From IMG/VR virus record IMGVR_UViG_3300008108_000023, positions 64,001 to 128,000 of that record: a DNA stretch of 64,000 nucleotides; one strand, given 5' to 3'. Of this stretch, positions 590 to 51,202 are shown piece by piece. The position numbers and the translations under genes are program-made. A model generated the notes under the pieces. That model was not told the DNA's origin. It searched no databases and saw nothing but the letters and a program-made list of their open reading frames with translations. Origin of the DNA: a virus. The first letter of the stretch is position 1. Every line of letters starts with the position of its first letter.

Positions 590-1402
590 TTATAAATAGT
601 TTAATAATCCATAACTGTCGTTACGAAGTTTCTTTAGTGCTTTATCACGTAGTTGTCTAATACGTTCTTTAGTGCATCCGAATTCATCACCCAAGTCTTC
701 TAAATTCATTTCAATACCGTTCAACCCATAAGACTTTTCAATAATGACCTTTTCTCTATCGTCAAGGATTGAAAGCATTTGAGAAACTCTTTTTTTAATT
801 TCTTCAGACGTATTTAAAATGTCTTCAGGGTTATCAGCGTTGACATTAATGATGGTATCGATTAATTGGTCTCCCTCTTCATTTATTTCATCATTCAAGT
901 TTACACAATGAGGTAGTACTATTTCTGCCCCATTATCTTCATAATTGATAAAGAAAGGGTCATCAACATTTAACTGTTCATTTTTCTTTCTTTTTTGATT
1001 TTCCTGAATAATGTTTGACGGCAGTCTTATCATCCTTGAATTCTCGTTTAGAGAAGCCATAATAGATTGTTTAATCCACCAAACAGCATATGAAATAAAT
1101 TTGTAACCACTGTTAGGGTCAAATCTTTCGGCGGCTCGTATGAGACCGATATTACCTTCGGATATTAAATCAATTAAATCCATACCATTGTTTTGATATG
1201 ATTTAGCGACGGTGATTACAAAACGTAGATTACCCACTACGAGTTCGTTTAACAAATCGACTCTTTCCTTCTTAGGTAGGTCTTTATTTTTTAAGAGTTC
1301 GAAGACTTCATCCTGTCTTTGGTGAGTAATTACCTTAATCTTTCGGATGTCTTTGATGTAGTTCTGAATTTCTTCAGTGTTGATTAGTAATGTTTTGGCC
1401 AT
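590..1402 (-). CDS. RNA polymerase sigma-70 family factor, Bacteroidota RpoD-like
   Basis: A 270-residue sigma factor that would direct host RNA polymerase to phage promoters. Region 2 spans about residues 50-120 and contains the conserved core-binding and -10 recognition helices (NLRFVITVAKSYQ, DLISEGNIGLIRAAERFD, FISYAVWWIKQSI). Region 4 spans about 200-262, with the helix-turn-helix at 235-260 (LEDLGDEFG, TKERIRQLRDKALKKLR). The stretch between (about 130-195) is short and diverged, so region 3 is reduced. Overall order and length match the short primary sigma factor of Bacteroidota (about 285 residues) rather than T4 gp55. It is the best candidate for reading the TATTTAT elements before the virion genes, although that link is inference. 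Confidence 0.93.
   Translation of the reverse strand: MAKTLLINTEEIQNYIKDIRKIKVITHQRQDEVFELLKNKDLPKKERVDLLNELVVGNLRFVITVAKSYQNNGMDLIDLISEGNIGLIRAAERFDPNSGYKFISYAVWWIKQSIMASLNENSRMIRLPSNIIQENQKRKKNEQLNVDDPFFINYEDNGAEIVLPHCVNLNDEINEEGDQLIDTIINVNADNPEDILNTSEEIKKRVSQMLSILDDREKVIIEKSYGLNGIEMNLEDLGDEFGCTKERIRQLRDKALKKLRNDSYGLLNYL
592..598 (-). promoter_or_regulatory. TATTTAT element before small membrane gene
   Basis: The sense strand reads CTATTTATA, 11 bases before the ATG at 580. It overlaps the last codons and stop of the sigma factor gene, so part of its match could be due to coding constraint. Confidence 0.4.
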
Positions 1403-1446
1403 GAATGTTCGGTTTGTGGTTCATGGGTAAAAATATGTAAAAAAAA

Positions 1447-1908
1447 TCAATTTTGGAAGCCATCCAAGAATTTTTTTTCGTCAGGAGTCAAACTGTCTAT
1501 CCCCTCCTGTTCAATTTTCTCTAAAATATTATCAAGGTCCATTGTTTCGTTAGGGTTCTCGGTGTTTTCTTTTTTATTATATTCTAACCTTAATGAACTA
1601 TATTCTTCACTTGGCTTAAACATAAAGTCCTTCATCTGTATAGGTAAATTGGCACTATATATACTTTCTCTTTCGAAGAGGAAGTAAAATTTCACATCCT
1701 CCATAGAAATAATATTGTGAAGTTCTTCAGAGAGCTCTTTTCTATTTGATTCGGATTCAAATATAACTATTATACTTTTAGACGTATCTTCAATAACAAA
1801 CCTAACCTTGGCAATTTTTGGACTAACTCCAAGAACTTCCAAACAAAAAAATTCAATGTCTTCGTGGTCTTCGAAATTCGCGAATAAAAATAAAAGATAT
1901 GTCTTCAT
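1447..1908 (-). CDS. Unknown 153-aa protein with Bacteroidota-type C-terminal motif
   Basis: The N-terminal 90 residues alternate strands and helices in a small alpha/beta pattern (MKTYLLFLFANF, KSIIVIFESE). Residues 95-120 are polar and probably disordered. The last 30 residues read LDNILEKIEQEGIDSLTPDEKKFLDGF, written here only to show the pattern iLekI-x3-G-x2-SLT-x2-EK-x-FL; this resembles the short helical motif at the C-terminus of many Bacteroidota membrane proteins (DUF6576-like). The gene is the last of three in a string behind a TATTTAT element. No function can be assigned; the motif supports a Bacteroidota host. Confidence 0.65.
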   Translation of the reverse strand: MKTYLLFLFANFEDHEDIEFFCLEVLGVSPKIAKVRFVIEDTSKSIIVIFESESNRKELSEELHNIISMEDVKFYFLFERESIYSANLPIQMKDFMFKPSEEYSSLRLEYNKKENTENPNETMDLDNILEKIEQEGIDSLTPDEKKFLDGFQN

Positions 1909-2665: not shown

Positions 2666-2670
2666 ATGAT

Positions 2671-2677
2671 ATAAATA
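2671..2677 (-). promoter_or_regulatory. TATTTAT element before candidate spanin genes
   Basis: The sense strand reads ATATTTATA, ending 5 bases before the ATG at 2665. One of ten copies of the TATTTAT core found just upstream of virion or candidate lysis genes. Confidence 0.5.
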
Positions 2678-10571: not shown

Positions 10572-12722
10572 TTAGAAATCTATTTTTATTGCGAATACTT
10601 GTGTTCCGCTTCTTTTTACAGGATTGGCGGTCTTACCTATTGCCAACACTTCTTTATTTTCGTTCAATAAAGCAACTTCTGTAATTCTCTTATCTTGACC
10701 TGTAGTATACGTTGGATTTTGTGTAACATTAAATTGACTAGCCGGTAAGTTCACCAAGAAATTCATTTTCTCAATATCCGTTGCTCTTACCAATTTAATA
10801 CTACCAGGAAAAGGTTGTTCATCACCAAACTGTGGTGCTGTTGATGGTTGATTTGGTATCTCACCAATATAAGATTCTAAATCAAATATTGTAGTATCAT
10901 TATCGTACATGTCAAAAGTAACTTGAAATGAATAATCAACTAAGTTCGCAGGGTTAATTGTGTTACCAACAGTATGATTTGGTATATATTGAGTCATATC
11001 CAATAATTTCCAAAGATTTGGTTCAGGTAAATCACCATAATTGGTAACTTGAATTAATAATTGGAACTGATTAGCTATAAACCCATTTTTAAAATTACAA
11101 GTACTACCTGTTACCATATCTGTGAAATAACCATTTGCGAACTTGACATATAACTGACAGGGAGTTGTATAATAGGTACTACCTGTTGTTGTTTCGAATT
11201 TAGTATAGTAGTTACAAGGTAATCCATTCATTTGGGTATCACCCGTGTAGTTTAACATGTATGTTAACCATATAGTCTGTTCAGTTGAACCAGAATAAAA
11301 AGATTGTGCGGCTGGTAAATCACTTGGTAATAAGTTTATTTTTGGTGAAGGTAGTGTGTACTTTCTGTTAGATTTATAATCCATAACAGCAACCAACTCT
11401 TGGTCGTCAATGACAACTACTTTATTGTTTACGAAAATTTTACCAACTCTATTTCCAATCTCATCTAATAGATATCTGTACTTGATTTTTTGGTATGCGT
11501 TTTTCTTCGAACTAACAAAGTAATCTGTTGTGTCCATAGTAAGTAAAGCACCTATTGTTGTACCAGTATTTCTATGGTATTGAATAAATGGGATATATAC
11601 TTCAAAATATTCTAAATCTGTTATCGTGTTACCAATTGAGTCTTCTAACAATGCTTGAGATTCCGTATTATTTGTGCTTATATAATCGTCGTACTTATAG
11701 AATCTTTCAGGGTCATTTTTTAAATCTCCGAGTTCTGAATAATGGATTACAGCAATACATCTTTGTTCCTCAGGAGTAACTTCAATCACTTCATTATATG
11801 AATTTTTATAAGAAGTGGGGTTAGTTACCGTGGTACCTGAACTTGTTGTAAATGTTTGACCACTTGATGTTGTATAACCTAAAAATTGTTTAGTTGATAC
11901 GTGTTTGTTTGATGTAAAACCTGTTATGTTTTCGTCCACACCATTAACGTCAAAACCGATTGGTTTCATACCCCAAACGACATTCATGGTCCATGAATTT
12001 AATTGTTGTGTTGGGTCAATTTCCGCGGGTTTACAGTTTGGATTATATGTTACACTTACAGGATATTCATTTTCACAAGAATTACATACCACTTGAGCGG
12101 GACCTGTACATCCTGAAAAATTAGGTGTCGCTCTATCAAGATAAAGTGTATTTCCTGTTACACCTGTAATTTTATATGTTAAACTGTTTGTTTCACCAGT
12201 GATTACAGGATGATTTGGGTCATTACCACAAAATCCACCATAAACTATTGTAATATACTCACAGTCATTAAAACTAGCACCTGTTAATACGGTCACACTA
12301 TTATCACCTGTCATCGCGGATAATGATATTTGTTGAGTTTCACACTCAACACTCGTTCCTGTACAATTACTACTATCATAATCAATATACTCGGTTACAA
12401 AACCGGCAGGACCCATAACGTTTCTTAAAGTATCGGTGGTTGAAGATTGTACGGGAATACCATAAACCGTAGAACCCGTGTTACTACTATCTAATTTATA
12501 GGGATATTTTACACCCCCTTCTTTATCAAAGGGTGCAAAGACCATTTGAAATGGTTGTGAGTTTAATCCTGTAAAATTATCAAACGGTGATGTGTAATCA
12601 AATTCAGAATCCCCAATTTGAAAATATGCGATGTTAAAACTACCTTTTGCAATAGAATTTCTACCCTTTTGGGTGATTCTAACTGATAAAAATTCTGAAT
12701 TATTATTACTTAAAAAACTCAT
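10572..12722 (-). CDS. Virion structural protein, tail or baseplate associated
   Basis: A 716-residue, beta-rich, Thr/Ser/Asn-rich protein. The N-terminal 45 residues (VRITQKGRNSIAKGSFNIAYFQIGDSEF) look like the start domain of large T4-like virion proteins, and the C-terminus (VLAIGKTANPVKRSGTQVFAIKIDF) is strand-rich, as in proteins that insert into a baseplate or fibre. A Cys-rich section lies at about 115-225. It follows a TATTTAT element and is the last gene of the Thr/Pro fibre cluster, so it may form the base for the fibre proteins. No precise family was recognised. Confidence 0.6.
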   Translation of the reverse strand: MSFLSNNNSEFLSVRITQKGRNSIAKGSFNIAYFQIGDSEFDYTSPFDNFTGLNSQPFQMVFAPFDKEGGVKYPYKLDSSNTGSTVYGIPVQSSTTDTLRNVMGPAGFVTEYIDYDSSNCTGTSVECETQQISLSAMTGDNSVTVLTGASFNDCEYITIVYGGFCGNDPNHPVITGETNSLTYKITGVTGNTLYLDRATPNFSGCTGPAQVVCNSCENEYPVSVTYNPNCKPAEIDPTQQLNSWTMNVVWGMKPIGFDVNGVDENITGFTSNKHVSTKQFLGYTTSSGQTFTTSSGTTVTNPTSYKNSYNEVIEVTPEEQRCIAVIHYSELGDLKNDPERFYKYDDYISTNNTESQALLEDSIGNTITDLEYFEVYIPFIQYHRNTGTTIGALLTMDTTDYFVSSKKNAYQKIKYRYLLDEIGNRVGKIFVNNKVVVIDDQELVAVMDYKSNRKYTLPSPKINLLPSDLPAAQSFYSGSTEQTIWLTYMLNYTGDTQMNGLPCNYYTKFETTTGSTYYTTPCQLYVKFANGYFTDMVTGSTCNFKNGFIANQFQLLIQVTNYGDLPEPNLWKLLDMTQYIPNHTVGNTINPANLVDYSFQVTFDMYDNDTTIFDLESYIGEIPNQPSTAPQFGDEQPFPGSIKLVRATDIEKMNFLVNLPASQFNVTQNPTYTTGQDKRITEVALLNENKEVLAIGKTANPVKRSGTQVFAIKIDF

Positions 12723-12731
12723 GGTTATAAT

Positions 12732-12738
12732 ATAAATA
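12732..12738 (-). promoter_or_regulatory. TATTTAT element before 716-aa virion gene
   Basis: The sense strand reads GTATTTATA, 9 bases before the ATG at 12722, in the 37-base gap between two virion genes. Confidence 0.55.
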
Positions 12739-16972: not shown

Positions 16973-19537
16973 TTAACATCCATCACCAATTGTATACTGA
17001 GTAGTTACCGAACCAGAAACTACTTCATAAATTACACTTCCAATTTGAAAAAACCCATCAAATGTTGTTGTTAAGTTATTATTCGTGTAGATGGTAACAC
17101 CTGAATCATAAATATTGACCACATTTGGTAATGTGTATAATGTTACACTATACGAACCTGAACACAACACAACCCCACTACAGTAATTTGTACATCCAAC
17201 CATATTCCATTCTTGATATGTCGGACTAGGTGTTGGTGTAACTGATGGAGTTTTAGTTGGGGTTGGGGTTTTAGTTAAAGTAGGGGTTGGGGTTGGGGAA
17301 ACCGCTACCAAGGATGAACCACAAATTTCGTATAGAGCATTATCATTTATACCATATATTGTATTTGTCGGTACATACAAAGGTTTAGAAATACCGTCAC
17401 CAATAATTTCACTAAATATACCTGTTGTCGGGTCTAGAACACCTAAGAATCCATCTGACAATGTTGAATATCTGCTAATATATAATTTACCGTTATCAGG
17501 ATTATATATCATAGACCTTGTTGAGCCAAAAATCCAAGTTGCTCCCGATATTGAATTTAAAGTAAGTGTGGTGTTTGTTGCAACATCTATTTTGTATACC
17601 GTAGACGCACTAACTAAATAAATAATATTGTTCGTCACATCCAAAGCAATTAAACTTGCTGAGGTGATTGGTAGTGATGTACCATCTAACGAAATAGTAT
17701 TACCAGAACAAGAATATATTCTACCACTCTGAGCGAAATATAATTTATTATTATTAGGATTGTAAACAGTCGCTTCAGGGTTTGATAAAGTTATACCTGT
17801 AATTTGGTTTGTAAAAGTATCTGTTGAACCATCTATGACACTAATTTGTGAAACTGAAAAATTTCCACCTGTTTGACTAAATGCATAAATTTTATTTAAA
17901 ACAGAATTATATTCAATTTTTCCTAAACCTGATGTTATTCCCGAAATTGATATTGACGATGTTGTGTTTGTGTTTAAATTTCTTATTAACATTTTAACAG
18001 GAAATGATGATTCCCAACTGTATAATTTGTTGTTAGTTGAGTTATATCCTAATAATAAACTACTTCCTGACCATGTAAATTCATTTGTTAAACTTGTTGA
18101 ATTTGGGACAAAAGATTGTACAACACTTGATGCGTTTAGAACGTATGCTTTGTTATTTGATGATGAATAAACCATACCTTGTCTACCAACGGCAGAATAT
18201 GAATTCGTTGCGGCAAGAGTATTTCTAACTGAATCACTACAACCACCTGATGGTGTTGGGGTCAGGGTCGGGGTTACGGTATTAGTAGGTGTTACACTTG
18301 GGGTCGCAACTGGATTACCGGATGGACTTGGTGTTGGGGTTTTTGTTGGGGTCGGGGTTGGAGATACAATAGGTACAGGTAATGTAAAATTCACAGAATT
18401 AGTACACGTACCAGTACTTTGAACTGTAAATGTTGTTATTGAATAACACACAAGTGCGGTATACCCAGATAATAATTGAGATGTTGTCACACCAGTTGCA
18501 ATTAATACTATAGTTCCTCCTGTTGTTGTTCCCGAAATATTATAAGGTCCGGCTTGCGTTAAAAAATAAATTGGGTGTAATGAGAATGTATATTGAGTAC
18601 ATCCTGTAGGTACTAGTGAAGGTGATGGGGTTACTGTGGGTGTTACACTAACAGTTACCGAAGGTGTTAATGAAGGGGTATTTGTGGGTGTATTTGTTGG
18701 TGTAACCGAAGGTGTCGAACCTAACGTACTTGACGGTGTATTTGTGGGTGTATTTGTTGGTGTAACCGAAGGTGTCGGAGTTAGACTTGGAGTTTTTGTT
18801 GGAGTTACAGTATTTGTTGGGGTTGGGGTTTCGGAAGGAGTTTCGGAAGGAGTTTGTGTTAATGTGGGTGTTGGAGTTGGGGTCACACTCGGACAAACTA
18901 CAGTACAGAAACCATTGAAAGATATCCCTGCATATGGGTAACTCGGGTCGTAACAAACATATGTTGGTGAAAATGAACCACTATGATATACACCACAACA
19001 GTCCGTATAATACCAATTTGGTGAATCGGTTATACCTGAGTAACATAAAGTTGGTGTGGGTGTTGGAGTAGGGGTAGGAGTTGGACTTGGTGGTGTTAAA
19101 CAGTCAATACAATTTGTAAAAAGAGCATTTTCAGAAATTAATTGTGCAACAGTATAATTGTAAGTGGTGCTACCAGTGCCTTGTTCATAAACTCCTGTAT
19201 AGTTGTAACATGTACCATCATAAGAAATTGTTGCACCTGTACTTTGGAAATACTGATTAACTTCTGAATTTTTTAAACCAAAGTAAACAAATGCCCCTGG
19301 TATTTGGCAATGTTCAAATTGCCACCCATTAAAATCGTCGTTACATTGTTCACAGGTTGTATAACCACTAAAAATAACCGTACCTGACGGTCCACCTCCG
19401 ACATTTCCTGTTGAAGACCAACATTGGTAATCAGCAAAAATCGTGTCACCCGATAATACTAAACTGTCATCGACGACAAAATCATAGTATGACGCTGGGT
19501 CTAAACAATTTTGAAATGTTATTATTTGTGCTGGCAT
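16973..19537 (-). CDS. Thr/Pro-linker virion protein with a YVTN-like beta-propeller
   Basis: An 854-residue protein of five globular parts joined by T-P-T-x linkers. Residues 1-147 are a Cys-rich N-terminal domain; 163-212 a small Cys-rich module (NWYYTDCCG); 308-392 a beta domain; about 434-740 a propeller-like region; and 771-854 a C-terminal beta module. The propeller region has recurring strand turns such as VYNPNNNKLYFA, IYNPDNGKLYIS and VYSSSNNKAYVLN about every 40-50 residues, the hallmark of YVTN/NHL-type propellers. This is consistent with a surface-exposed binding protein. Several linkers contain G-rich template sequence. A TATTTAT element precedes the gene. Confidence 0.65.
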   Translation of the reverse strand: MPAQIITFQNCLDPASYYDFVVDDSLVLSGDTIFADYQCWSSTGNVGGGPSGTVIFSGYTTCEQCNDDFNGWQFEHCQIPGAFVYFGLKNSEVNQYFQSTGATISYDGTCYNYTGVYEQGTGSTTYNYTVAQLISENALFTNCIDCLTPPSPTPTPTPTPTPTLCYSGITDSPNWYYTDCCGVYHSGSFSPTYVCYDPSYPYAGISFNGFCTVVCPSVTPTPTPTLTQTPSETPSETPTPTNTVTPTKTPSLTPTPSVTPTNTPTNTPSSTLGSTPSVTPTNTPTNTPSLTPSVTVSVTPTVTPSPSLVPTGCTQYTFSLHPIYFLTQAGPYNISGTTTGGTIVLIATGVTTSQLLSGYTALVCYSITTFTVQSTGTCTNSVNFTLPVPIVSPTPTPTKTPTPSPSGNPVATPSVTPTNTVTPTLTPTPSGGCSDSVRNTLAATNSYSAVGRQGMVYSSSNNKAYVLNASSVVQSFVPNSTSLTNEFTWSGSSLLLGYNSTNNKLYSWESSFPVKMLIRNLNTNTTSSISISGITSGLGKIEYNSVLNKIYAFSQTGGNFSVSQISVIDGSTDTFTNQITGITLSNPEATVYNPNNNKLYFAQSGRIYSCSGNTISLDGTSLPITSASLIALDVTNNIIYLVSASTVYKIDVATNTTLTLNSISGATWIFGSTRSMIYNPDNGKLYISRYSTLSDGFLGVLDPTTGIFSEIIGDGISKPLYVPTNTIYGINDNALYEICGSSLVAVSPTPTPTLTKTPTPTKTPSVTPTPSPTYQEWNMVGCTNYCSGVVLCSGSYSVTLYTLPNVVNIYDSGVTIYTNNNLTTTFDGFFQIGSVIYEVVSGSVTTQYTIGDGC

Positions 19538-19554
19538 TTATTACTATTCTTTCT

Positions 19555-19561
19555 ATAAATA
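19555..19561 (-). promoter_or_regulatory. TATTTAT element before 854-aa gene
   Basis: The sense strand reads GTATTTATA, 17 bases before the ATG at 19537, in the gap after the giant fibre gene. Confidence 0.55.
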
Positions 19562-22803: not shown

Positions 22804-25800
22804 TGTATTGGTCGGTGTGTTGGTGGGTGTGACTGTGTTAGTAGGTGTATTTGTAGGTGTATTAGTTGGTGTGACTGTATTTGTTGGAGTGTTTGTTGGG
22901 GTGTTTGTGGGTGTAACAGTATTAGTAGGAGTATTGGTTGGTGTTACAGTTTTGGTTGGAGTGTTAGTAGGTGTAACAGTATTAGTAGGTGTATTGGTAG
23001 GTGTATTGGTTGGTGTAACAGTATTCGTAGGAGTATTTGTTGGAGTATTTGTTGGACTAACAGTAGCTGCTGGTGTTCTTGTTTTACAGTGTTAGTCGGA
23101 GTGTTAGTTGGTGTATTCGTTGGTGTAACGGTATTTGTTGGGGTGTTAGTTGGTGTATTTGTTGGTGTTACTGTATTGGTAGGAGTATTTGTAGGACTCA
23201 ATGTAGGTGTAACTGTATTGGTCGGTGTTAAAGTTGGTGTAACTGTCTTTGTTGGTGTATTAGTAGGTGTCTGAGTTGGTGTAACTGTATTAGTCGGAGT
23301 ATTAGTAGGCGTAACAGTGTTTGTTGGAGTATTGGTTGGGGTATTTGTAGGAGTTACCGTATTGGTTGGGGTGTTTGTAGGAGTATTGGTAGGGGTGACA
23401 GTCTTGGTTGGAGTATTTGTGGGGGTAACAGTATTTGTTGGGGTAACCGTATTAGTTGGTGTGTTGGTTGGAGTATTTGTTGGGGTTAGAGTTGGTGTAA
23501 CAGTTTTTGTTGGTGTATTAGTTGGAGTAACGGTATTTGTTGGGGTATTGGTTGGGGTATTTGTAGGAGTTACCGTATTAGTCGGGGTATTAGTAGGCGT
23601 AACAGTGTTTGTTGGAGTATTGGTTGGGGTGTTTGTAGGAGTTAAGGTAGGTGTAACAGTCTTGGTTGGGGTGTTGGTTGGTGTAACTGTATTAGTAGGT
23701 GTGTTAGTTGGTGTAACTGTATTAGTAGGTGTATTTGTTGGAGTATTTGTTGGGGTAACAGTATTCGTAGGAGTATTGGTCGGTGTTAATGTAGGAGTAA
23801 CAGTTCTTGTTGGAGTATTTGTTGGGGTAACAGTATTCGTAGGAGTATTAGTAGGTGTTAATGTAGGTGTAACAGTCTTGGTCGGAGTGTTTGTAGGAGT
23901 ATTTGTTGGTGTAACAGTGTTTGTTGGTGTTACCGTGTTTGTAGGAGTATTGGTAGGAGTGTTCGTTGGAGTATTGGTTGGTGTTAATGTAGGTGTAACA
24001 GTATTAGTAGGTGTTAATGTAGGTGTAACAGTCTTGGTTGGGGTGTTTGTAGGAGTATTTGTTGGTGTAACGGTGTTCGTAGGGGTAACTGTAGGACTCA
24101 ATGTAGGGGTTACAGTATTGGTCGGAGTATTAGTAGGTGTTAATGTAGGTGTAACAGTCTTGGTTGGTGTATTGGTTGGGGTAACCGTGTTAGTTGGTGT
24201 GTTGGTGGGTGTTACTGTATTAGTAGGAGTAACTGTAGGACTCAATGTAGGAGTTACAGTCTTGGTTGGTGTATTAGTGGGTGTGTTTGTTGGTGTAACA
24301 GTATTGGTTGGGGTAACCGTGTTAGTTGGTGTGTTGGTTGGAGTATTTGTTGGGGTATTGGTTGGGGTGACTGTCTTAGTCGGTGTATTAGTTGGGGTTA
24401 CTGTATTTGTTGGTGTAACCGTATTTGTTGGTGTATTTGTGGGTGTATTGGTTGGAGTTAAAGTTGGTGTTACAGTTTTTGTTGGTGTGTTGGTCGGTGT
24501 AACTGTATTTGTTGGTGTATTTGTGGGTGTATTGGTCGGTGTAACTGTATTTGTTGGAGTATTTGTTGGGGTGTTAGTGGGTGTAACAGTATTAGTAGGA
24601 GTATTTGTGGGCGTATTGGTCGGTGTAACTGTATTTGTCGGAGTATTGGTTGGGGTATTTGTTGGTGTAACGGTGTTCGTAGGGGTAACTGTAGGACTCA
24701 ATGTAGGGGTTACAGTGTTTGTAGGAGTGTTTGTGGGAGTGTTGGTTGGGGTAACTGTATTAGTAGGAGTAACTGTAGGGGTGACAGTTTTAGTAGGTGT
24801 ATTAGTTGGAGTATTGGTAGGGGTTACAGTATTAGTAGGGGTATTTGTAGGAGTTAATGTAGGAGTTACAGTCTTGGTTGGGGTATTTGTTGGTGTAACG
24901 GTGTTCGTAGGGGTAACTGTAGGACTCAATGTGGGAGTCACCGTATTGGTCGGAGTATTGGTGGGGGTTACTGTATTAGTAGGAGTATTAGTAGGAGTAT
25001 TGGTTGGGGTTACCGTGTTGGTCGGAGTTAAAGTTGGTGTAACAGTTTTTGTTGGTGTATTGGTTGGAGTTACAGTGTTCGTAGGGGTATTTGTTGGTGT
25101 TAGAGTTGGTGTAACAGTTTTTGTTGGTGTATTAGTAGGAGTTACGGTGTTAGTTGGAGTGTTGGTAGGTGTGTTAGTTGGTGTTACAGTGTTGGTTGGT
25201 GTATTAGTAGGTGTCTGAGTTGGTGTAACTGTCTTGGTTGGGGTATTAGTTGGCGTTACAGTATTGGTTGGGGTTACCGTATTTGTAGGAGTTACGGTAT
25301 TGGTTGGAGTAACAGTATTAGTCGGCGTTACTGTGTTAGTTGGGGTGTTAGTGGGGGTAACAGTATTAGTAGGAGTAACGGAATTCGTGGGAGTGTTTGT
25401 AGGAGTGTTTGTTGGTGTTAATGTAGGTGTTACGGTTTTTGTTGGTGTATTGGTTGGGGTTACTGTATTTGTAGGAGTATTTGTAGGAGTTAAGGTAGGT
25501 GTAACAGTATTGGTTGGGGTATTGGTAGGTGTGTTGGTCGGGGTGACTGTGTTAGTTGGTGTAACTGTATTAGTTGGTGTATTCGTAGGGGTTTGAGTTG
25601 GTGTAACAGTATTGGTTGGGGTATTTGTTGGAGTTAAAGTTGGTGTGACAGTTTTTGTTGGTGTATTGGTAGGAGTTACGGTATTTGTAGGAGTATTAGT
25701 CGGTGTCTGAGTTGGTGTTACGGTGTTTGTTGGAGTATTGGTTGGAGTTAATGTAGGTGTTACAGTCTTGGTTGGTGTATTAGTTGGTGTTACAGTATTA

Positions 25801-28800
25801 GTAGGTGTAACAGTATTAGTAGGTGTAACAGTGTTTGTAGGTGTAACGGTATTGGTGGGAGTCACCGTATTAGTTGGTGTGTTAGTTGGGGTTACGGTGT
25901 TGGTTGGAGTAACGGTATTTGTTGGGGTGTTTGTAGGAGTGTTTGTTGGTGTTAATGTAGGTGTTACGGTTTTTGTTGGTGTATTGGTTGGTGTAACAGT
26001 ATTTGTTGGTGTGTTGGTGGGTGTGTTGGTGGGTGTTACAGTATTAGTTGGGGTATTAGTAGGACTCAATGTTGGGGTAACAGTATTCGTTGGTGTTACA
26101 GTATTGGTTGGAGTGTTTGTTGGGGTATTTGTTGGGGTTACGGTATTAGTAGGGGTATTGGTTGGAGTTAATGTAGGAGTAACAGTCTTGGTTGGTGTAT
26201 TAGTTGGCGTAACAGTGTTTGTTGGGGTGTTAGTTGGGGTATTTGTAGGGGTTACCGTATTGGTCGGAGTGTTGGTTGGTGTTAATGTAGGAGTAACAGT
26301 CTTGGTTGGAGTGTTTGTTGGGGTAACAGTATTGGTTGGAGTCACTGTATTAGTTGGTGTGTTGGTCGGTGTATTTGTTGGGGTTAAAGTTGGTGTGACA
26401 GTTTTTGTTGGTGTATTGGTTGGGGTTACTGTGTTAGTAGGAGTGTTTGTAGGTGTATTAGTAGGGGTATTAGTATTAGTCGGGGTATTGGTCGGTGTAA
26501 CTGTATTCGTTGGAGTAACGGTAGGAGTTAATGTAGGAGTAACAGTCTTGGTTGGTGTATTAGTAGGTGTGTTAGTAGGGGTTACCGTATTGGTTGGGGT
26601 GTTAGTCGGGGTAACTGTGTTAGTTGGTGTGTTAGTTGGTGTGTTGGTCGGAGTTACCGTATTTGTTGGAGTATTTGTAGGGGTTAAGGTAGGCGTAACA
26701 GTTCTTGTTGGAGTATTGGTCGGTGTAACTGTATTCGTTGGAGTTACAGTGTTAGTGGGGGTTACGGTATTGGTCGGCGTTACAGTGTTAGTCGGTGTTA
26801 CCGTATTAGTTGGAGTATTTGTTGGCGTAACAGTGTTTGTTGGAGTTACAGTGTTTGTGGGGGTATTGGTTGGAGTATTGGTGGGAGTCTGAGTTGGGGT
26901 GACTGTCTTAGTTGGGGTATTGGTCGGGGTAACTGTGTTGGTTGGAGTAACGGTATTTGTTGGGGTATTGGTCGGGGTATTGGTTGGAGTTAAAGTTGGC
27001 GTAACAGTGTTTGTTGGTGTATTGGTAGGTGTTACAGTATTAGTTGGGGTATTGGTTGGAGTTAAAGTTGGTGTAACAGTTTTTGTTGGTGTATTAGTTG
27101 GCGTTACAGTATTAGTTGGTGTGTTAGTTGGTGTGTTTGTTGGGGTTACCGTATTGGTCGGAGTTACCGTAGGACTCAATGTAGGAGTTACAGTATTAGT
27201 TGGTGTGTTGGTTGGTGTGACTGTATTCGTTGGAGTGTTAGTAGGTGTCTGAGTTGGGGTAACAGTATTTGTTGGAGTATTGGTAGGAGTATTGGTAGGG
27301 GTTACAGTATTGGTAGGAGTATTGGTAGGGGTTACAGTATTGGTAGGAGTATTCGTTGGGGTTAGAGTTGGTGTAACAGTTTTGGTAGGAGTATTAGTAG
27401 GGGTTACAGTATTTGTAGGAGTTACCGTAGGACTCAATGTGGGAGTCACCGTATTAGTTGGTGTATTGGTTGGGGTTACGGTGTTGGTTGGAGTGTTTGT
27501 AGGTGTATTAGTTGGAGTAACAGTATTTGTAGGTGTATTAGTCGGGGTATTGGTTGGTGTTACGGTGTTGGTTGGGGTTAAAGTTGGTGTGACAGTTTTT
27601 GTTGGTGTATTGGTTGGCGTAACAGTGTTTGTCGGAGTATTAGTTGGGGTGTTGGTTGGTGTATTAGTTGGAGTTACAGTGTTGGTTGGAGTGTTAGTTG
27701 GTGTTACGGTATTGGTTGGGGTTACTGTGTTTGTAGGAGTATTGGTCGGTGTATTCGTTGGGGTTAGAGTTGGTGTAACAGTTTTGGTAGGAGTATTAGT
27801 AGGAGTTATAGTATTCGTTGGTGTGTTGGTCGGTGTAACAGTATTAGTTGGGGTGTTGGTTGGGGTGTTGGTTGGAGTAACAGTATTAGTTGGAGTATTA
27901 GTTGGGGTGTTGGTTGGAGTAACAGTGTTTGTTGGGGTTACCGTAGGGCTCAATGTGGGAGTTACAGTTTTAGTAGGGGTGTTTGTTGGAGTTACGGTGT
28001 TGGTTGGGGTATTGGTTGGTGTGTTAGTTGGTGTAACTGTATTAGTGGGAGTCACTGTAGGGCTCAATGTTGGAGTTACAGTGTTGGTTGGGGTGTTAGT
28101 TGGTGTATTGGTTGGTGTAACTGTATTCGTTGGAGTGTTTGTAGGAGTGTTGGTTGGGGTTACAGTATTAGTTGGTGTGTTGGTTGGAGTTAATGTAGGT
28201 GTAACGGTTCTTGTGGGGGTGTTGGTAGGGGTTACGGTATTAGTTGGAGTGTTTGTTGGGGTATTTGTTGGGGTTACGGTATTAGTTGGAGTGTTTGTTG
28301 GGGTATTTGTTGGGGTTACGGTATTAGTAGGGGTATTGGTTGGGGTATTTGTTGGGGTTACGGTATTAGTAGGGGTATTGGTTGGAGTTAATGTAGGTGT
28401 AACGGTTCTTGTGGGGGTGCTGGTAGGGGTTACGGTGTTAGTTGGAGTGTTGGTAGGTGTGTTAGTTGGCGTAACGGTGTTAGTTGGAGTCACAGTCGGA
28501 CTCAATGTAGGTGTTACTGTATTTGTTGGGGTGTTGGTAGGGGTATTTGTAGGTGTTACGGTGTTGGTAGGTGTAACTGTTGGACTCAATGTAGGAGTCA
28601 CAGTATTTGTTGGTGTATTTGTAGGTGTGTTAGTTGGGGTAACGGTATTAGTTGGAGTGTTGGTTGGTGTATTTGTTGGTGTTACTGTGTTAGTAGGGGT
28701 ATTTGTGGGAGTATTTGTAGGTGTTACGGTGTTGGTAGGTGTAACTGTTGGACTCAATGTGGGAGTCACAGTTTTAGTAGGAGTATTTGTAGGTGTTACG

Positions 28801-31800
28801 GTGTTGGTAGGTGTGTTTGTTGGGGTATTGGTTGGAGTTACCGTATTCGTCGGAGTATTAGTAGGGGTGTTAGTTGGAGTTACAGTGTTTGTTGGTGTGT
28901 TTGTAGGGGTATTGGTAGGTGTTACTGTGTTAGTAGGAGTATTTGTAGGAGTATTGGTTGGTGTTACGGTATTTGTAGGAGTTACAGTTGGTGTTAATGT
29001 AGGAGTCACCGTGTTTGTTGGGGTATTGGTGGGAGTATTTGTAGGGGTTACCGTATTTGTCGGTGTATTGGTTGGTGTTAAAGTAGGTGTAACCGTTCTT
29101 GTTGGAGTGTTAGTTGGTGTAACCGTATTTGTAGGAGTATTAGTAGGGGTGTTGGTAGGGGTTACAGTATTCGTAGGGGTATTGGTTGGTGTATTCGTGG
29201 GTGTGACAGTATTAGTTGGTGTTACGGTTGGACTCAGTGTAGGGGTTACTGTATTGGTTGGAGTGTTAGTTGGGGTATTTGTAGGTGTAACTGTATTTGT
29301 TGGGGTGTTTGTAGGTGTATTAGTTGGTGTAACTGTATTAGTTGGTGTATTCGTAGGGGTTTGAGTTGGTGTAACAGTATTTGTAGGAGTCACAGTCGGA
29401 CTCAATGTGGGAGTCACGGTCTTAGTCGGTGTGTTAGTAGGGGTAACTGTGTTCGTAGGAGTTACCGTAGGACTCAATGTAGGGGTGACAGTGTTGGTTG
29501 GAGTATTGGTTGGTGTGTTGGTTGGTGTTACGGTGTTTGTAGGAGTTACTGTATTAGTAGGAGTGTTCGTAGGGGTATTGGTAGGGGTTACTGTGTTAGT
29601 TGGAGTGTTAGTAGGTGTATTGGTAGGAGTAACTGTATTGGTTGGTGTATTTGTGGGTGTAACAGTGTTAGTTGGTGTGTTAGTTGGTGTGTTGGTAGGA
29701 GTTACGGTGTTAGTTGGAGTATTTGTAGGTGTCTGAGTTGGTGTAACTGTATTCGTAGGGGTTACAGTCGGACTCAGTGTAGGTGTTACTGTGTTAGTCG
29801 GGGTAACTGTAGGTGTATTTGTTGGAGTTACAGTGTTGGTTGGGGTGTTGGTTGGAGTTACGGTGTTCGTTGGAGTATTGGTTGGTGTATTAGTTGGGGT
29901 TACTGTATTAGTTGGAGTATTGGTTGGGGTATTGGTTGGAGTTACAGTCTTGGTTGGTGTGTTGGTTGGTGTTACGGTGTTTGTTGGAGTATTGGTTGGA
30001 GTGTTTGTGGGGGTGTTGGTTGGTGTTACGGTGTTTGTTGGGGTGACTGTATTGGTTGGAGTGTTTGTTGGGGTGTTGGTGGGAGTATTTGTAGGGGTTA
30101 CCGTATTTGTCGGTGTATTGGTTGGTGTTAAAGTAGGTGTAACCGTTCTTGTTGGAGTTACAGTCGGACTCAATGTTGGAGTTACTGTATTGGTTGGTGT
30201 TAGTGTCGGGCTTAATGTTGGTGTAACAGTACTAGTTGGGGTATTGGTTGGGGTGTTGGTTGGAGTTACCGTATTGGTTGGTGTATTCGTCGGTGTATTT
30301 GTAGGTGTAACAGTATTCGTAGGTGTTACAGTTGGAGTATTGGTTGGGGTTACTGTGTTAGTTGGAGTATTGGTGGGGGTATTGGTTGGAGTAACAGTAT
30401 TTGTTGGTGTCACAGTCGGACTCAATGTTGGTGTAACAGTTTTTGTTGGGGTATTTGTCGGTGTCTGAGTTGGTGTTACGGTATTGGTTGGCGTATTGGT
30501 AGGAGTATTGGTTGGCGTATTTGTTGGAGTTACGGTATTAGTTGGTGTGACTGTATTGGTTGGGGTGTTAGTCGGCGTGTTCGTAGGGGTGTTGGTTGGT
30601 GTTACCGTATTTGTTGGTGTATTAGTAGGTGTGTTAGTAGGTGTTACTGTATTTGTAGGCGTGTTCGTGGGAGTCTGAGTTGGTGTTACAGTGTTAGTAG
30701 GAGTGTTAGTTGGCGTGTTAGTGGGTGTAACAGTATTAGTAGGAGTCACCGTTGGACTCAATGTAGGTGTAACAGTATTGGTTGGTGTGTTGGTCGGAGT
30801 GTTGGTAGGAGTTACAGTATTAGTAGGAGTCACCGTTGGACTCAATGTAGGTGTAACTGTATTTGTTGGGGTATTTGTTGGGGTATTGGTAGGAGTTACT
30901 GTATTAGTCGGAGTGTTGGTCGGGGTGTTGGTTGGAGTAACAGTGTTGGTGGGAGTATTGGTTGGAGTGTTAGTTGGTGTATTTGTTGGGGTTACGGTGT
31001 TGGTTGGAGATACCGTATTTGTAGGAGTATTGGTTGGAGTGTTAGTTGGGGTTAGTGTTGGGGTTACGGTGTTTGTTGGGGTATTGGTAGGTGTATTGGT
31101 TGGTGTAACGGTATTTGTAGGAGTAACAGTGTTGGTTGGAGTATTGGTAGGACTTAATGTTGGCGTATTAGTTGGGGTTACGGTGCTGGTTGGAGTCACT
31201 GTTGGACTCAATGTAGGTGTAACTGTATTTGTTGGTGTGTTGGTAGGAGTGTTTGTAGGAGTCACAGTATTAGTAGGAGTCACAGTTGGACTTAATGTGG
31301 GAGTTACTGTATTAGTTGGAGTGTTGGTAGGTGTGTTAGTTGGGGTTACTGTATTTGTCGGGGTATTGGTTGGGGTATTTGTTGGTGTAACGGTGTTGGT
31401 CGGAGTGTTTGTGGGAGTATTTGTAGGAGTTACTGTGTTCGTAGGAGTTACTGTAGGACTCAATGTTGGTGTTACTGTATTTGTTGGGGTGTTAGTAGGA
31501 GTGTTTGTTGGAGTCACCGTGTTTGTTGGGGTATTGGTGGGAGTATTTGTTGGTGTAACAGTATTTGTTGGGGTGTTAGTTGGGGTGTTGGTAGGAGTTA
31601 CCGTATTGGTTGGTGTGTTAGTTGGGGTGTTGGTAGGAGTTACCGTATTGGTTGGTGTGTTAGTAGGAGTGTTTGTTGGTGTAACAGTATTGGTTGGTGT
31701 GTTAGTAGGAGTGTTTGTTGGTGTAACAGTATTGGTAGGAGTTACAGTTGGGGTGTTGGTTGGAGTTACAGTATTAGTAGGCGTATTGGTAGGAGTATTA

Positions 31801-34800
31801 GTTGGAGTTACTGTATTTGTAGAAGTATTGGTAGGAGTATTGGTAGGGGTGACAGTATTGGTGGGCGTATTGGTAGGAGTATTGGTTGGGGTGACTGTAT
31901 TTGTTGGAGTATTTGTTGGGGTGTTAGTTGGAGTTACTGTATTTGTAGGAGTATTGGTAGGAGTATTGGTAGGGGTGACAGTATTGGTGGGGGTGTTTGT
32001 AGGAGTATTGGTAGGGGTGACAGTATTGGTTGGAGTATTAGTTGGGGTGACTGTATTTGTTGGAGTATTTGTTGGGGTGTTGGTAGGGGTGTTGGTAGGA
32101 GTTACAGTATTGGTTGGAGTAACTGTATTGGTTGGAGTGTTTGTCGGGGTATTTGTAGGTGTCAGTGTCGGTGTTACGGTATTTGTTGGAGTATTAGTAG
32201 GAGTGTTAGTTGGTGTAACCGTATTTGTTGGTGTATTTGTGGGTGTATTGGTAGGAGTAACTGTATTGGTAGCCGTATTGGTAGGAGTGTTGGTTGGTGT
32301 ATTAGTTGGTGTGACTGTATTGGTCGGAGTTACCGTCGGTGTATTTGTTGGGGTTACGGTATTGGTAGGGGTTACTGTTGGTGTATTCGTAGGCGTGTTT
32401 GTTGGGGTTACGGTATTTGTTGGAGTATTAGTGGGGGTATTCGTAGGTGTATTGGTTGGTGTTACGGTGTTAGTTGGGGTATTTGTAGGGGTTTGAGTTG
32501 GTGTAACGGTATTGGTTGGAGTCACTGTTGGACTCAATGTTGGCGTTACCGTATTGGTAGGAGTATTAGTTGGCGTATTGGTAGGAGTAACTGTGTTGGT
32601 TGGGGTGTTGGTAGGAGTGTTAGTTGGTGTTACAGTATTAGTTGGTGTGTTAGTTGGTGTGTTTGTTGGTGTTACGGTGTTCGTAGGGGTGTTAGTAGGT
32701 GTCAGTGTTGGGGATACCGTATTGGTAGGAGTGTTAGTTGGTGTATTTGTAGGGGTTACCGTATTGGTAGGAGTATTAGTTGGTGTATTTGTAGGAGTAG
32801 CAGTATTAGTAGGGGTATTTGTTGGAGTATTGGTCGGTGTTACAGTGTTTGTTGGAGTGTTGGTTGGTGTTACAGTGTTTGTTGGGGTGTTTGTCGGAGT
32901 GTTGGTTGGGGTATTCGTTGGTGTTACAGTATTTGTAGGGGTTACGGTGTTGGTTGGAGTATTGGTGGGGCTTAATGTTGGGGTATTTGTAGGGGTTACG
33001 GTGTTGGTTGGGGTCGCTGTTGGAGTCAATGTAGGTGTAACTGTATTGGTTGGGGTATTGGTAGGAGTATTGGTTGGGGTAACAGTATTGGTAGGAGTAA
33101 CTGTTGGACTCAATGTAGGAGTAACTGTATTGGTAGGAGTGTTTGTTGGTGTATTGGTTGGTGTTACAGTATTAGTTGGAGTATTTGTTGGAGTTAAAGT
33201 TGGTGTAACAGTTTTTGTTGGTGTATTAGTTGGGGTGTTAGTAGGAGTTACTGTATTGGTTGGTGTGTTTGTGGGAGTATTGGTTAATGTAACGGATGGT
33301 GTTACAGTGTTGGTTGGTGTTACCGTTGGAGTATTGGTGGGTGTTGGGGTGCTCGTTGGAGTTGGTGAGGGTAACATTGTATAATCAATGTCACAAGAAG
33401 GTGCTGGTGTTGGTGAAACCGTCACAGTTACACTTGGTGTATTTGTTGGAGTTACAGTATTGGTTGGAGTTACAGTATTTGTCGGGGTGTTTGTGGGGGT
33501 AACTGTATTGGTTGGAGTCACTGTTGGACTCAATGTTGGTGTTACAGTGTTAGTAGGAGTGTTGGTCGGCGTGTTAGTTGGAGTATTGGTTGGTGTTACG
33601 GTGTTAGTTGGTGTTACCGTAGGACTCAATGTAGGAGTCACAGTATTGGTAGGTGTATTGGTTGGAGTATTGGTTGGTGTTACGGTGTTAGTTGGTGTTA
33701 CCGTAGGACTCAATGTAGGAGTCACAGTATTCGTTGGTGTGTTTGTAGGTGTATTAGTCGGAGTTACGGTGTTGGTTGGAGTTACGGTATTTGTGGGAGT
33801 GTTTGTAGGAGTGTTGGTAGGAGTGTTTGTTGGAGTTACGGTGTTGGTTGGGGTATTGGTTGGGGTATTGGTTGGTGTAACGGTATTTGTAGGAGTATTT
33901 GTAGGTGTCTGAGTTGGAGTTACTGTATTCGTCGGTGTGTTTGTTGGGGTGTTGGTAGGAGTTACGGTATTGGTAGGACTTAATGTTGGAGTGTTAGTTG
34001 GAGTATTTGTTGGAGTTACTGTGTTGGTTGGAGTATTCGTAGGTGTAACCGTATTTGTTGGTGTATTAGTTGGGGTGTTTGTAGGTGTATTAGTTGGTGT
34101 CACAGTTTCTGTTGGAGTCACTGTAACAGTATTGGTTGGTGTGACTGTATTGGTAGGGGTTACGGTGTTGGTTGGTGTAAGTGTTGGTGTTTCTGTGGGA
34201 GTATTTGTTGGTGTGTTGGTGGGGGTATTTGTTGGTGTTTCGGTTGGTGTATTTGTAGGTGTATTAGTTGGAGCTACCGTATTTGTTGGAGTTACAGTTG
34301 GAGTGTTAGTTGGGGTAACCGTTGGTGTAACAGTATTGGTAGGAGTATTGGTTGGGGTTTGAGTTGGTGTAACGGTTGCAGTATTTGTTGGTGTTAGGGT
34401 AGGTGTTTCAGTTTGTGTTACAGTGGGTGTATTGGTTGGAGTTACAGTATTGGTTGGAGTTACAGTTGAGGTATTAGTCGGAGTGTTAGTTGGTGTTATG
34501 GTGTTGGTTGGGGTATTGGTAGGTGTTTCGGTAGGGGTAACGGTTGGACTCAGTGTTGGTGTTACTGTGTTAGTCGGAGTATTAGTTGGGGTGTTGGTTG
34601 GTGTTTCGGTAGGGGTAACGGTTAGGGTTACGGTGTTGGTTGGAGTATTGGTTGGTGTTTCGGTTGGTGTTTCGGTTGGTGTATTAGTTGGGGTAACAGT
34701 ATTGGTTGGAGTTACAGTTGGGGTAACAGTTGGGGTAACAGTTGGAGTTACGGTGTTGGTTGGGGTATTGGTTGGTGTTTCGGTTGGTGTTTCGGTTGGT

Positions 34801-35495
34801 GTATTAGTTGGGGTAACAGTATTTGTTGGGGTGTTAGTGGGTGTTTCAGTCGGTGTATTAGTTGGGGTATTGGTTGGTGTTTCGGTAGGGGTTACTGTAT
34901 GAGTTGGTGTATTGGTAGGTGTTTCGGTAGGGGTTACCGTATTTGTTGGAGTTACAGTTGGAGTTTCGGTAGGGGTAACTGTATTTGTTGGGGTGTTGGT
35001 AGGTGTTTCAGTTGGTGTATTGGTTGGGGTTACCGTATTTGTTGGGGTTACAGTTGGAGTTTCGGTCGGAGTAACAGTTGGTGTCTCGGTTGGTGTAACT
35101 GTATTCGTAGGAGTTACAGTAGGTGTGTTGGCTGGTGATTCGGTTGGAGTTACTGTGTTAGTTGGGGTAACTGTAGGAGTTTCAGTTGGGGTAACCGTTG
35201 GGGTATTTGTTGGGGTATTGGTTGGAGTTACTGTGTTAGTTGGAGTAACTGTAGGAGTTTCAGTTGGGGTAACTGTAGGCTCGTTTGTTGGAGTATTAGT
35301 CGGAGTTACGGTATTCGTAGGAGTATTTGTTGGAGTGATAGTATTGGTTGGGGTAACAGTAGGTGTTTTTGTAACCGTAGGTGTAACAGTAGGGGTTTTG
35401 GTAACTGTTGGGGTTGGGGTATTTGAAGTAAAGGTTGTTGGTGTTGGTGTTAATGATGGTGTAAGTGTTGGTGAAGGTGTAGGTGAAGGTGTAGG
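21570..35495 (-). repeat. Thr-X dipeptide repeat array, about 14 kb, coding
   Basis: Continuous low-complexity coding repeat. On the sense strand, codons follow ACN CCN ACN AAY, with ACN GTN ACN CCN at intervals of about 42 bases. All four Thr and all four Pro codons are used, so DNA units are seldom identical over long stretches. The plus strand is almost wholly G and T. A single short interruption lies at about 33368-33405. Shorter arrays of the same kind lie at about 20110-20480 and 21009-21338, and as linkers in the three neighbouring genes. Confidence 0.9.
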
Positions 35496-35690
35496 GCAAG
35501 GAATCTCAGCCACACAAGTTTTATCAAGTGACGGAAAATAAACTGAGTAAGTACCTAAGTAGTAGTTTGTGTCGTAATAATATGGCATCACGACAGTACC
35601 TAAATTCAAGGTACCGCCAGTACAAGGATAAAATGTGATAACACCAATTTCACCATCAAAATTACCTGTGTTTATTTTTATTAATGCCAT
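22944..35690 (-). CDS. Giant Thr/Pro repeat protein, N-terminal fragment (4248 codons)
   Basis: It starts at the ATG at 35690. Residues 1-64 form a small globular domain ([16 protein letters not shown]; two Cys) that could attach it to the virion. From about residue 65 to the end, nearly every second residue is Thr, with Pro, Asn and Val alternating in units such as [12 protein letters not shown]; spacing between Val positions is often 14 residues. Lys, Arg, Leu, Ser, Glu and Gln replace Asn in places. One short non-repeat insert ([11 protein letters not shown]) lies near residue 765. The last 46 residues are out of frame ([10 protein letters not shown] onward) because of a 4-base loss near 23085. 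With that restored, the gene would span 19582-35690 and encode about 5370 residues. It lies next to tail genes and is probably an extended fibre or linker. Confidence 0.65.
23081..23087 (-). other. Frameshift junction in the giant gene
   Basis: The sense strand reads GTAAAACAAGAACACC here. All other copies of this unit read GTAACACCAACAAGAACACC or a synonymous form, so four bases are missing. Upstream reads T-N-T-V in one frame, and downstream reads [10 protein letters not shown] in the -1 frame. The A-AAA run also allows a -1 slip by lysyl-tRNA, so a recoding site cannot be excluded, but no standard slippery heptamer or clear stimulatory hairpin is seen. Confidence 0.7.
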
Positions 35691-40025: not shown

Positions 40026-40942
40026 TATTCTGTTATAGTATCAAAGTTTAAGGTTTCGTCTACGTCATTTCTTTCTTCACGAATCTCATATAATGTTTCA
40101 TTAAATTCGTCTTTAACTTCGTAAAGATTGTATTGTCTATAGATGTTATTATTATTGTCATAGATGGTATAGATACCTTGTGAAACCGCTTTACTTTGAT
40201 TACCATAAAGAGCATGTGCCAATGTTGAAGCATCATGTTCAACCATTTCTACCTCAATTGTGGTGGGATTTAAATATGTGTTTGTTAATATGATTTTTTG
40301 TGATGGTACACCAATAAATGGAACCGTATTTGGTTTATTTGTTGGTGCTGAAGATGGTGTTACTGTTAAAAACATCAAATTGGTTGCCTGTTCACTATAC
40401 TGATATCTGATAGCTTTTTGTGATGTACTTGTTAAATTTGAAACAATTGGTGTACAGTAGAACGAAGATGTTACGATTCTATAAAAATTTGGAATTTTTT
40501 TATTGTCAGATGAATTAATGTACTCAATTCTATATCCAACAAGTCCTTGTGGTGTAAATTTATTTCTATCATCAGCAGGAACATTGGATAAGTCAATGAC
40601 CAATCCTCTAACTGAAGGTAGAGACGCTAAAATTCCACAATCAGTAATTGAAGTTCTTATTTGTTTTGGTCTTATATGGAGTGTGTATACACCTAAATCC
40701 GCAAAATCGGATGCGGTTAATTTTAAGTTGTACAATCCACCTAAGATTTCAACATTAGGTGCTGAAGTATCATCCGTGGTGTTCGAATTATGATAAACAG
40801 GGGTTAATACTTCAGCTGAACTTAATTTCTTAAGAGTAACAGTCGAAGTGCTATTTCTATCCGCAACGTAATGAAAATAAATTTCAACGTCTTCGGGTGA
40901 CACATCTGATGGTCTAATTATACCGTAACTACCTACTGCCAT
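40025..40942 (-). CDS. Beta-rich virion protein, 305 aa
   Basis: A mostly beta-strand protein with no signal peptide and two or three Cys. The N-terminal 110 residues (EDVEIYFHYVADRNSTSTVTLKKL; GLYNLKLTASDFADLGVYTLHIRP, abbreviated) have the look of an Ig-like or bacterial adhesion sandwich. The C-terminal 60 residues are acidic and helical (YEVKDEFNETLYEIREERNDVDE). It follows a TATTTAT element and is coupled by TAATG to the 1414-aa gene. Probably part of the baseplate or fibre base; family not recognised. Confidence 0.6.
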   Translation of the reverse strand: MAVGSYGIIRPSDVSPEDVEIYFHYVADRNSTSTVTLKKLSSAEVLTPVYHNSNTTDDTSAPNVEILGGLYNLKLTASDFADLGVYTLHIRPKQIRTSITDCGILASLPSVRGLVIDLSNVPADDRNKFTPQGLVGYRIEYINSSDNKKIPNFYRIVTSSFYCTPIVSNLTSTSQKAIRYQYSEQATNLMFLTVTPSSAPTNKPNTVPFIGVPSQKIILTNTYLNPTTIEVEMVEHDASTLAHALYGNQSKAVSQGIYTIYDNNNNIYRQYNLYEVKDEFNETLYEIREERNDVDETLNFDTITE

Positions 40943-40953
40943 GTTTTTTTATA

Positions 40954-40960
40954 ATAAATA
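40954..40960 (-). promoter_or_regulatory. TATTTAT element before 305-aa gene
   Basis: The sense strand reads ATATTTATT, 11 bases before the ATG at 40942, in a 24-base intergenic gap. Confidence 0.55.
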
Positions 40961-40966
40961 TGAAAA

Positions 40967-48852: not shown

Positions 48853-48858
48853 TATTCT

Positions 48859-48865
48859 ATAAATA
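48859..48865 (-). promoter_or_regulatory. TATTTAT element before 1374-aa gene
   Basis: The sense strand reads CTATTTATA, 6 bases before the ATG at 48852, within the 52-base gap after gp6. Confidence 0.55.
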
Positions 48866-51195: not shown

Positions 51196-51202
51196 ATAAA
51201 TA
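51196..51202 (-). promoter_or_regulatory. TATTTAT element before gp25
   Basis: The sense strand reads ATATTTATT, 4 bases before the ATG at 51191. A transcript starting a usual distance after a -10 element would be leaderless. Confidence 0.55.

Follow-up and report, generated by a model that had tools for sequence, protein, structure and literature searches.

The gene at positions 590..1402 (minus strand) of the window, the 64,000-nucleotide stretch of viral DNA analysed here, encodes from an ATG start a protein of 270 amino acids which is, almost beyond doubt, an RpoD-type sigma factor. With a probability of roughly 0.6, we consider it to be a second sigma of a jumbo T4-related phage, acting on promoters of the -33/-7 form before the switch to late transcription. 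That the protein reads a -33/-7 promoter appears probable; that it reads specifically the relaxed, middle class of such promoters is a close call, which we put slightly short of even. The labels early, middle and late are assigned throughout by gene content.

Pfam detected both Sigma70_r2 (PF04542, residues 55-122, E=2.2e-17) and Sigma70_r4 (PF04545, residues 210-261, E=9.2e-12) above their gathering scores, the protein matched PHROG 351 (RNA polymerase sigma factor, E=1.7e-52) and its top PDB matches were SigA, RpoS and RpoD, with E-values as low as 1.5e-37. The limits of regions 2 and 4 are those of Pfam; those of region 1.2 (about residues 9-57) and of a 3.2-like finger (about residues 163-186), which follows a shortened sigma-3, come from our reading of the alignment. 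When 17 core-family phage sigmas were aligned with RpoD of E. coli and of 27 Bacteroidota, the phage proteins were found to lack about 15 residues between regions 3.0 and 3.2, where there is little conservation, and the predicted structure of the window's sigma has pLDDT values below 50 at residues 147-172 and 176-185. A full sigma-3 domain was thus not found in this protein, and we class it as RpoD-like rather than as a complete primary sigma because sigma-3 is incomplete. The region 2.3 aromatics Y105, W108 and W109 (E. coli Y430, W433 and W434) are invariant in the 17 core phage sigmas, the stretch ISYAVWW in region 2.3 is common to the phage sigma and Bacteroidota RpoD, and in region 4.2 E585, R588 and Q589 are retained with R584 replaced by K (E. 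coli numbering). In regions 2.4/3.0, at least seven positions conserved in the 27 Bacteroidota RpoDs are altered in at least 85% of the 17 core phage sigmas (440-442, 444, 446, 454 and 458 among others), the changes including Q441A, A444N, Q446N, L454S and G458Q. The DNA-contacting residues are taken to be those of E. coli sigma-70.

Relatives of this sigma are encoded at 45 viral loci (29-100% identity, some of them partial), so that the gene is no chance ORF. Among the matches listed (the best 80 of 589), the nearest cellular relatives share 33-43% identity and are mostly from Bacteroidota; since the scan of genome contigs for cellular RpoDs used peptide patterns biased to Bacteroidota, this list alone is no proof of a Bacteroidota affinity and the tree is more telling. 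A first tree of 60 rows had long branches, one of them the Lak-B5 sigma, whose place is unsure. The second tree comprises 46 rows, with 14 phage sigmas and 22 RpoDs of Bacteroidota and relatives; its comparators are E. coli RpoD, RpoS and RpoH together with two SigAs of the Firmicutes type. Long phage rows (Lak, Vibrio, Salicola and others) were left out, as were L042, L045 and five host rows, and the tree is silent on their position. The 14 phage sigmas form one clade (support 100/99), which joins RpoD of Bacteroidota and relatives, with Gemmatimonadota and Latescibacterota rows among them (91/84, at a fork that is not starred), and is set apart from E. coli RpoD, RpoS and the two Firmicutes-type SigAs. 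It stands beside the 22 sampled RpoDs and is not nested in them, which implies that the capture is old or that its source is unsampled; to judge from these sequences, an origin by capture of a host RpoD is plausible.

The first-pass annotation had described a phage sigma close to a Bacteroidota primary sigma, with regions 2 and 4 well kept and the middle reduced and altered. Both descriptions hold, the former through the Pfam, PHROG 351 and PDB matches and the two supported groupings, the latter through the two Pfam domains and the residues missing between 3.0 and 3.2. Its further proposal of a captured host RpoD, to be checked by a phylogeny with host and phage sigmas, is borne out in that the protein falls on the Bacteroidota side of the tree and groups with RpoD of Bacteroidota and relatives, but not in its position, which is outside the sampled Bacteroidota RpoDs rather than within them. 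Several other records call for a remark. LR756500 (W03), a 462 kb uncultured phage record, has two matches to the sigma-family profile; L114 and L121, titled Bifidobacterium breve and Polynucleobacter, fell among Bacteroidota RpoDs and are probably mislabelled or contaminated MAG contigs; and L163 (MT839976) and L164 (OR846618), GenBank "phage" records which by eye have the full Firmicutes SigA form, are probably bacterial contigs.

The window derives from a 155 kb viral fragment (G000). G008, which at 288 kb is longer, represents the same phage, the collinear blocks of the two records being 98.8-100% identical. The surroundings of the sigma gene are T4-like: SbcC/SbcD-like nuclease subunits (gp46/gp47 in the T4 annotation) lie near it, and the other T4-like neighbours are an exonuclease, a primase, RuvC, a ClpP-like protease, UvsX, a DnaB helicase, ribonucleotide reductase and baseplate wedge proteins. 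The virus is probably a jumbo T4-related phage with a Bacteroidota host, the host being suggested by the affinity of the sigma, by the -7 consensus and by the kinship between its gp55 homologue and the one in a Flavobacterium phage. The gene directly upstream of the sigma gene (1447..1908, minus strand, 153 aa) carries DUF6576 at its C-terminus, and at 18 of the 25 sigma loci the last codons of this gene can be made out by eye before the sigma gene; a functional tie between the two could exist. Elsewhere in the window, a 4248-aa ORF at 22944-35690 (minus strand), with no Pfam domain, lies in a region dense with short tandem repeats, whose units are of 12-30 bases and multiples (among the matches listed, 150 of 309).

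The same phage encodes a homologue of T4 gp55. In 4 of 29 records, each longer than 200 kb, phrog_234 (identified as T4 gp55) matched an ORF of 232 aa (185 in T4), which in G008 lies at 40517-41215 (L058:1159-1857, minus strand in L058), about 102 kb upstream of the sigma gene. A relative of this protein is encoded in 109 stretches of IMG/VR, of which 80 were kept. A profile built from 27 of them (A3) matched 8 of 30 records, including immuto (1.7e-20), the complete 160 kb genome of a cultured Flavobacterium phage; across the T4 genome it matched gene 55 (6.3e-5) and nothing else, and an 11-row HMM recovered T4 gene 55 at 2.3e-7 as the sole hit in a 24 kb T4 stretch. The immuto copy is gp118 (NC_055915, 78174-78872), annotated as hypothetical. 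By eye, the C-terminal stretch of the gp55 homologue resembles a helix-turn-helix. A fold search with it placed sigma factors at the top of the list and the gp55 chain 7d7c_F at rank 49 (E=4.2), with nothing at E<=0.001 and a model pLDDT of 71.8; the gp55 assignment is therefore based on the profile searches. A search for gp45 matched none of 29 records, and none of its controls matched either. Both sigmas are present in ten records (G005, G008, G009, G013, G018, G026 and G029-G032). No gp55 match was obtained in 5 of the 15 records longer than 150 kb that carry a core-family sigma (G000, G003, G004, G006 and G012), where its expected position, going by the G008 layout, would lie beyond the end of the record; the profile search found no gp55 homologue in G024 either (166 kb, with a distant sigma).

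The two proteins are distinct. The RpoD-like sigma had no phrog_234 match at E<=0.01, phrog_234 had no match in G000, and the sole match of the gp55-like HMM in G008 at E<=10 was the 232-aa protein and not the RpoD-like sigma. Members of the gp55 family lack a full region 4 and depend on a co-activator and the clamp; in the sigma, region 4 is present. The sigma-family HMM weakly matches the gp55 homologue (1e-5), which is expected if region 2 is common to both, and the two are, judging by these profiles, distant kin.

In T4, gp55 serves a short, -10-only late promoter, TATAAATA (PMC1524935). This T4 form was tried as the late motif here and rejected: it precedes 7 ORFs in G008 (2.0 expected), and in the window alone TATAAATA/TATTTATA occurs 6 times on both strands against 9.1 expected. 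The related element TATTTATA, by comparison, precedes 42 of 371 ORFs in G008 at a distance of no more than 60 bp (2.0 expected) and 24 of 223 ORFs in immuto (1.6 expected). In the window the bare motif count is not above chance; what is non-random there is the placement before start codons. On the minus strand of the window it is found, as a T4-type late-promoter-like element, at 591..598 upstream of the ORF 293-580 and at 2670..2677 (ORF 2273-2665), both ORFs being without assigned function, at 12731..12738 (ORF 10572-12722, for which no family was found), at 19554..19561 (ORF 16973-19537, phrog_15511, of unknown function) and at 48858..48865 (ORF 44728-48852), and TATTTAT at 51196..51202, also on the minus strand, precedes a baseplate wedge gene (50739-51191) which we take to be gp25-like. 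When the G008 sites were aligned on TATTTATA, no -35 or other second element appeared upstream. Of 48 hand-picked immuto genes, 19 have one of the forms TATTTAT and TATTTAA within 70 bp, including those for terminase, gp20, sheath, tube, hub and tape measure as well as GroES and PhoH; neither form was present within 70 bp of the immuto major capsid and baseplate wedge genes, nor of those for ssb, recombinase, helicase, polymerase and primase.

An element that acts in translation rather than as a promoter would agree with the position of TATTTATA 3-42 bp before start codons and with the lack of Shine-Dalgarno leaders in Bacteroidota (PMC6847099). It would also agree with 10 of the 42 sites, where the element ends 3-5 bp before the called ATG and so leaves no room for an ordinary leader, barring a miscalled start. 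We regard such a translation-leader element as quite unlikely. The distance to the start is variable, the early blocks of G029 (3 of 117 ORFs) and G030 (1 of 176) have few copies of TATTTATA, though that of G008 does not (11 of 115), and the immuto genes that follow it include several structural ones but none of the replication genes listed.

Immuto also bears on which protein reads the motif, since two HMMs at E<=10 and the sigma-family profile found no RpoD-like sigma in it. The first-pass annotation had suggested that the sigma of the window perhaps reads TATTTAT, as an analogue but not a homologue by descent of T4 gp55. The element itself is real on the coding (minus) strand, as the G008 enrichment attests, and together with the altered -10-facing residues of the sigma this would fit a captured RpoD that has replaced gp55. 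Such a replacement is nevertheless very unlikely: a gp55 homologue is present in the same phage, TATTTATA is equally enriched in immuto without any RpoD-like sigma, and the motif has no -35 element, yet the sigma retains region 4 with its -35-binding helix. The suggested reading of TATTTAT is thus not supported, and of the comparison with gp55 the statement that the protein is outside that family stands, whereas the role of gp55 would fall to its homologue. Most likely, as far as motif and gene content indicate, TATTTAT goes with the late class and the gp55 homologue; that the RpoD-like sigma is not its reader we hold with considerable confidence. With the short promoter belonging to the T4-type factor, an earlier stage of infection is the most likely one for the RpoD-like sigma.

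In G008, G029 and G030, the promoters other than late ones have in common a -33/-7 form that includes TAnnTTTG, the -7 consensus of Bacteroidota RpoD (sigma-A) (PMC9723704). Its strict version, TTTGG...TAnnTTTG (TTTGG and a -7 ending in G), accounts for 48 of the 84 promoters that fall in the early blocks of the three genomes (G008 212-246 kb, G029 41-58 kb, G030 235-259 kb) against 6 of 100 outside them (p=8e-15; by genome, 19/24 versus 3/38, 15/31 versus 2/30 and 14/29 versus 1/32), where it is to be noted that the block limits were set after inspection of the data and that the three genomes are related. The genes of the early blocks are small, many of them have a strict TTTGG-N-TAnnTTTG promoter to themselves, and they are likely host-takeover genes: ten proteins picked from the 24 inside-block sites of G008 comprised one ParB-like protein and nine without known function, whereas ten picked from its 38 outside-block sites comprised ssb, two methyltransferases, two glycosyltransferases, a dehydrogenase, a protease and three unnamed proteins. 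Relaxed promoters lie before ssb, ruvC, methyltransferase and clpP, and before the sigma gene as well. The candidate -7 of the latter, TATTTTTA (1428..1435, minus strand, 25 bp before the ATG; site G008 142547), is seen by eye at the same position in close relatives, and TTCC occupies the -33 position 19 bp upstream of it (1455..1458, minus strand), where several relatives have TTTG and the subclade of the window has TTTA, TTTC or TTCC. In this subclade the sigma gene is thus a candidate for control by a relaxed -33/-7 promoter.

A separate third, middle motif, TTTTYTTnTATAnTT, had emerged from expectation maximization on 76 upstream regions from which genes with TATTTA and TAnnTTTG had been removed (scores of 66.7 with 25 starts and 68.1 with 60 starts, whereas 12 shuffles with 25 starts scored 38.5-49.5). 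When the three genomes were pooled it merged with the -33/-7 motif, with nothing clear left after removal, and was rejected; we therefore describe strict and relaxed forms rather than two unrelated motifs.

Whether the phage sigma distinguishes these forms is less certain. It may have the same specificity as host sigma-A, which it would supplement or outcompete on all -33/-7 promoters, for example after inhibition of sigma-A. The retained region 4.2 contacts and 2.3 aromatics agree with this, as does the fact that strict and relaxed promoters are alike in architecture and spacing and are fitted by one motif; the altered 2.4/3.0 positions and the concentration of strict sites in the early block argue against it, and we find it possible but somewhat doubtful. 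We also entertain, tentatively and at less than even odds, a sigma cascade that Bacteroidota jumbo phages would owe to two separate acquisitions, an RpoD-derived sigma with its -10-facing surface retuned from the unusual TAnnTTTG of the host to a phage-specific relaxed middle promoter and a T4-type gp55 reading TATTTATA.

In our preferred reading, a second sigma working before the late switch, host sigma-A would start the early block, as the motif and gene class there suggest. The phage RpoD-like sigma would bind the host core polymerase and join or replace sigma-A on -33/-7 promoters outside the early block, its likeliest targets being relaxed middle promoters, both that of its own gene and those of ssb, ruvC, methyltransferase and clpP. 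The gp55 homologue would then move the core enzyme to TATTTATA for the late genes, again on the strength of motif and gene class. The step that assigns the sigma to relaxed promoters is the weak one, because immuto, which lacks this sigma, shows a similar pattern, strict in the early block and looser elsewhere: by eye, TTTAG occurs in the -7 region at 20 of 20 hits in its strict early block (60-77 kb) and at 3 of 12 hits outside, where the looser promoters include those of ssb and primase. The relaxed class thus need not depend on an RpoD-like sigma.

By its published description, phage vB_PcaM_CBB has a similar layout, with a sigma-70 containing regions 2-4 (CBB_513), a gp55-like protein (CBB_244) and three kinds of promoter, namely RpoD-like early, divergent RpoD-like, found for the most part before a region with many DNA-synthesis genes, and T4-like late ATAAATA (PMC5259590). 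An arrangement of two sigmas and three promoter classes is thus already published for CBB, and the phage studied here resembles CBB (and GAP32) in it. CBB differs, on that description, in its enterobacterial host, in a middle class with a -35 TGAAACG instead of the relaxed -33 and -7 end, and in its late ATAAATA instead of TATTTATA. All group 2 jumbo phages are described as encoding sigmas, either minimal or near-RpoD, the latter perhaps acquired from cells, and the gp23-type members include the Bacteroidetes phages Lak-B8 and Tenacibaculum PTM1 (PMC7824862, 2021). The sigma of the window resembles their "more complete" sigmas in being near cellular RpoD, and we did not find its clade among the group 2 sigmas described there. 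The phages are like T4 (PMC1524935) in having a gp55 homologue and a short late promoter made up of a -10 only; they differ from it in the TATTTATA motif and in an RpoD-like sigma that is not the gp55 homologue. The strict promoters carry the -7 element of Bacteroidota sigma-A (PMC9723704), from which the phage sigma is distinguished by a sigma-3 about 15 residues shorter, by the changed 2.4/3.0 positions and by a clade of its own. In the open-licence literature we found no paper on TATTTATA as a phage late promoter and, among the matches listed, none recognisable on such a late promoter in Flavobacterium or Bacteroidetes phages.

The promoter consensus of Bacteroidota is distinctive, and the takeover of transcription by their large lytic phages is, according to the searches made, little studied. 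The unannotated gp55 homologue of immuto phages gains a likely function, and with it a candidate late promoter. The phage group is found in many environmental metagenomes and, with two sigmas and three readable promoter patterns, the timing of gene expression in these uncultured phages might become predictable from sequence.
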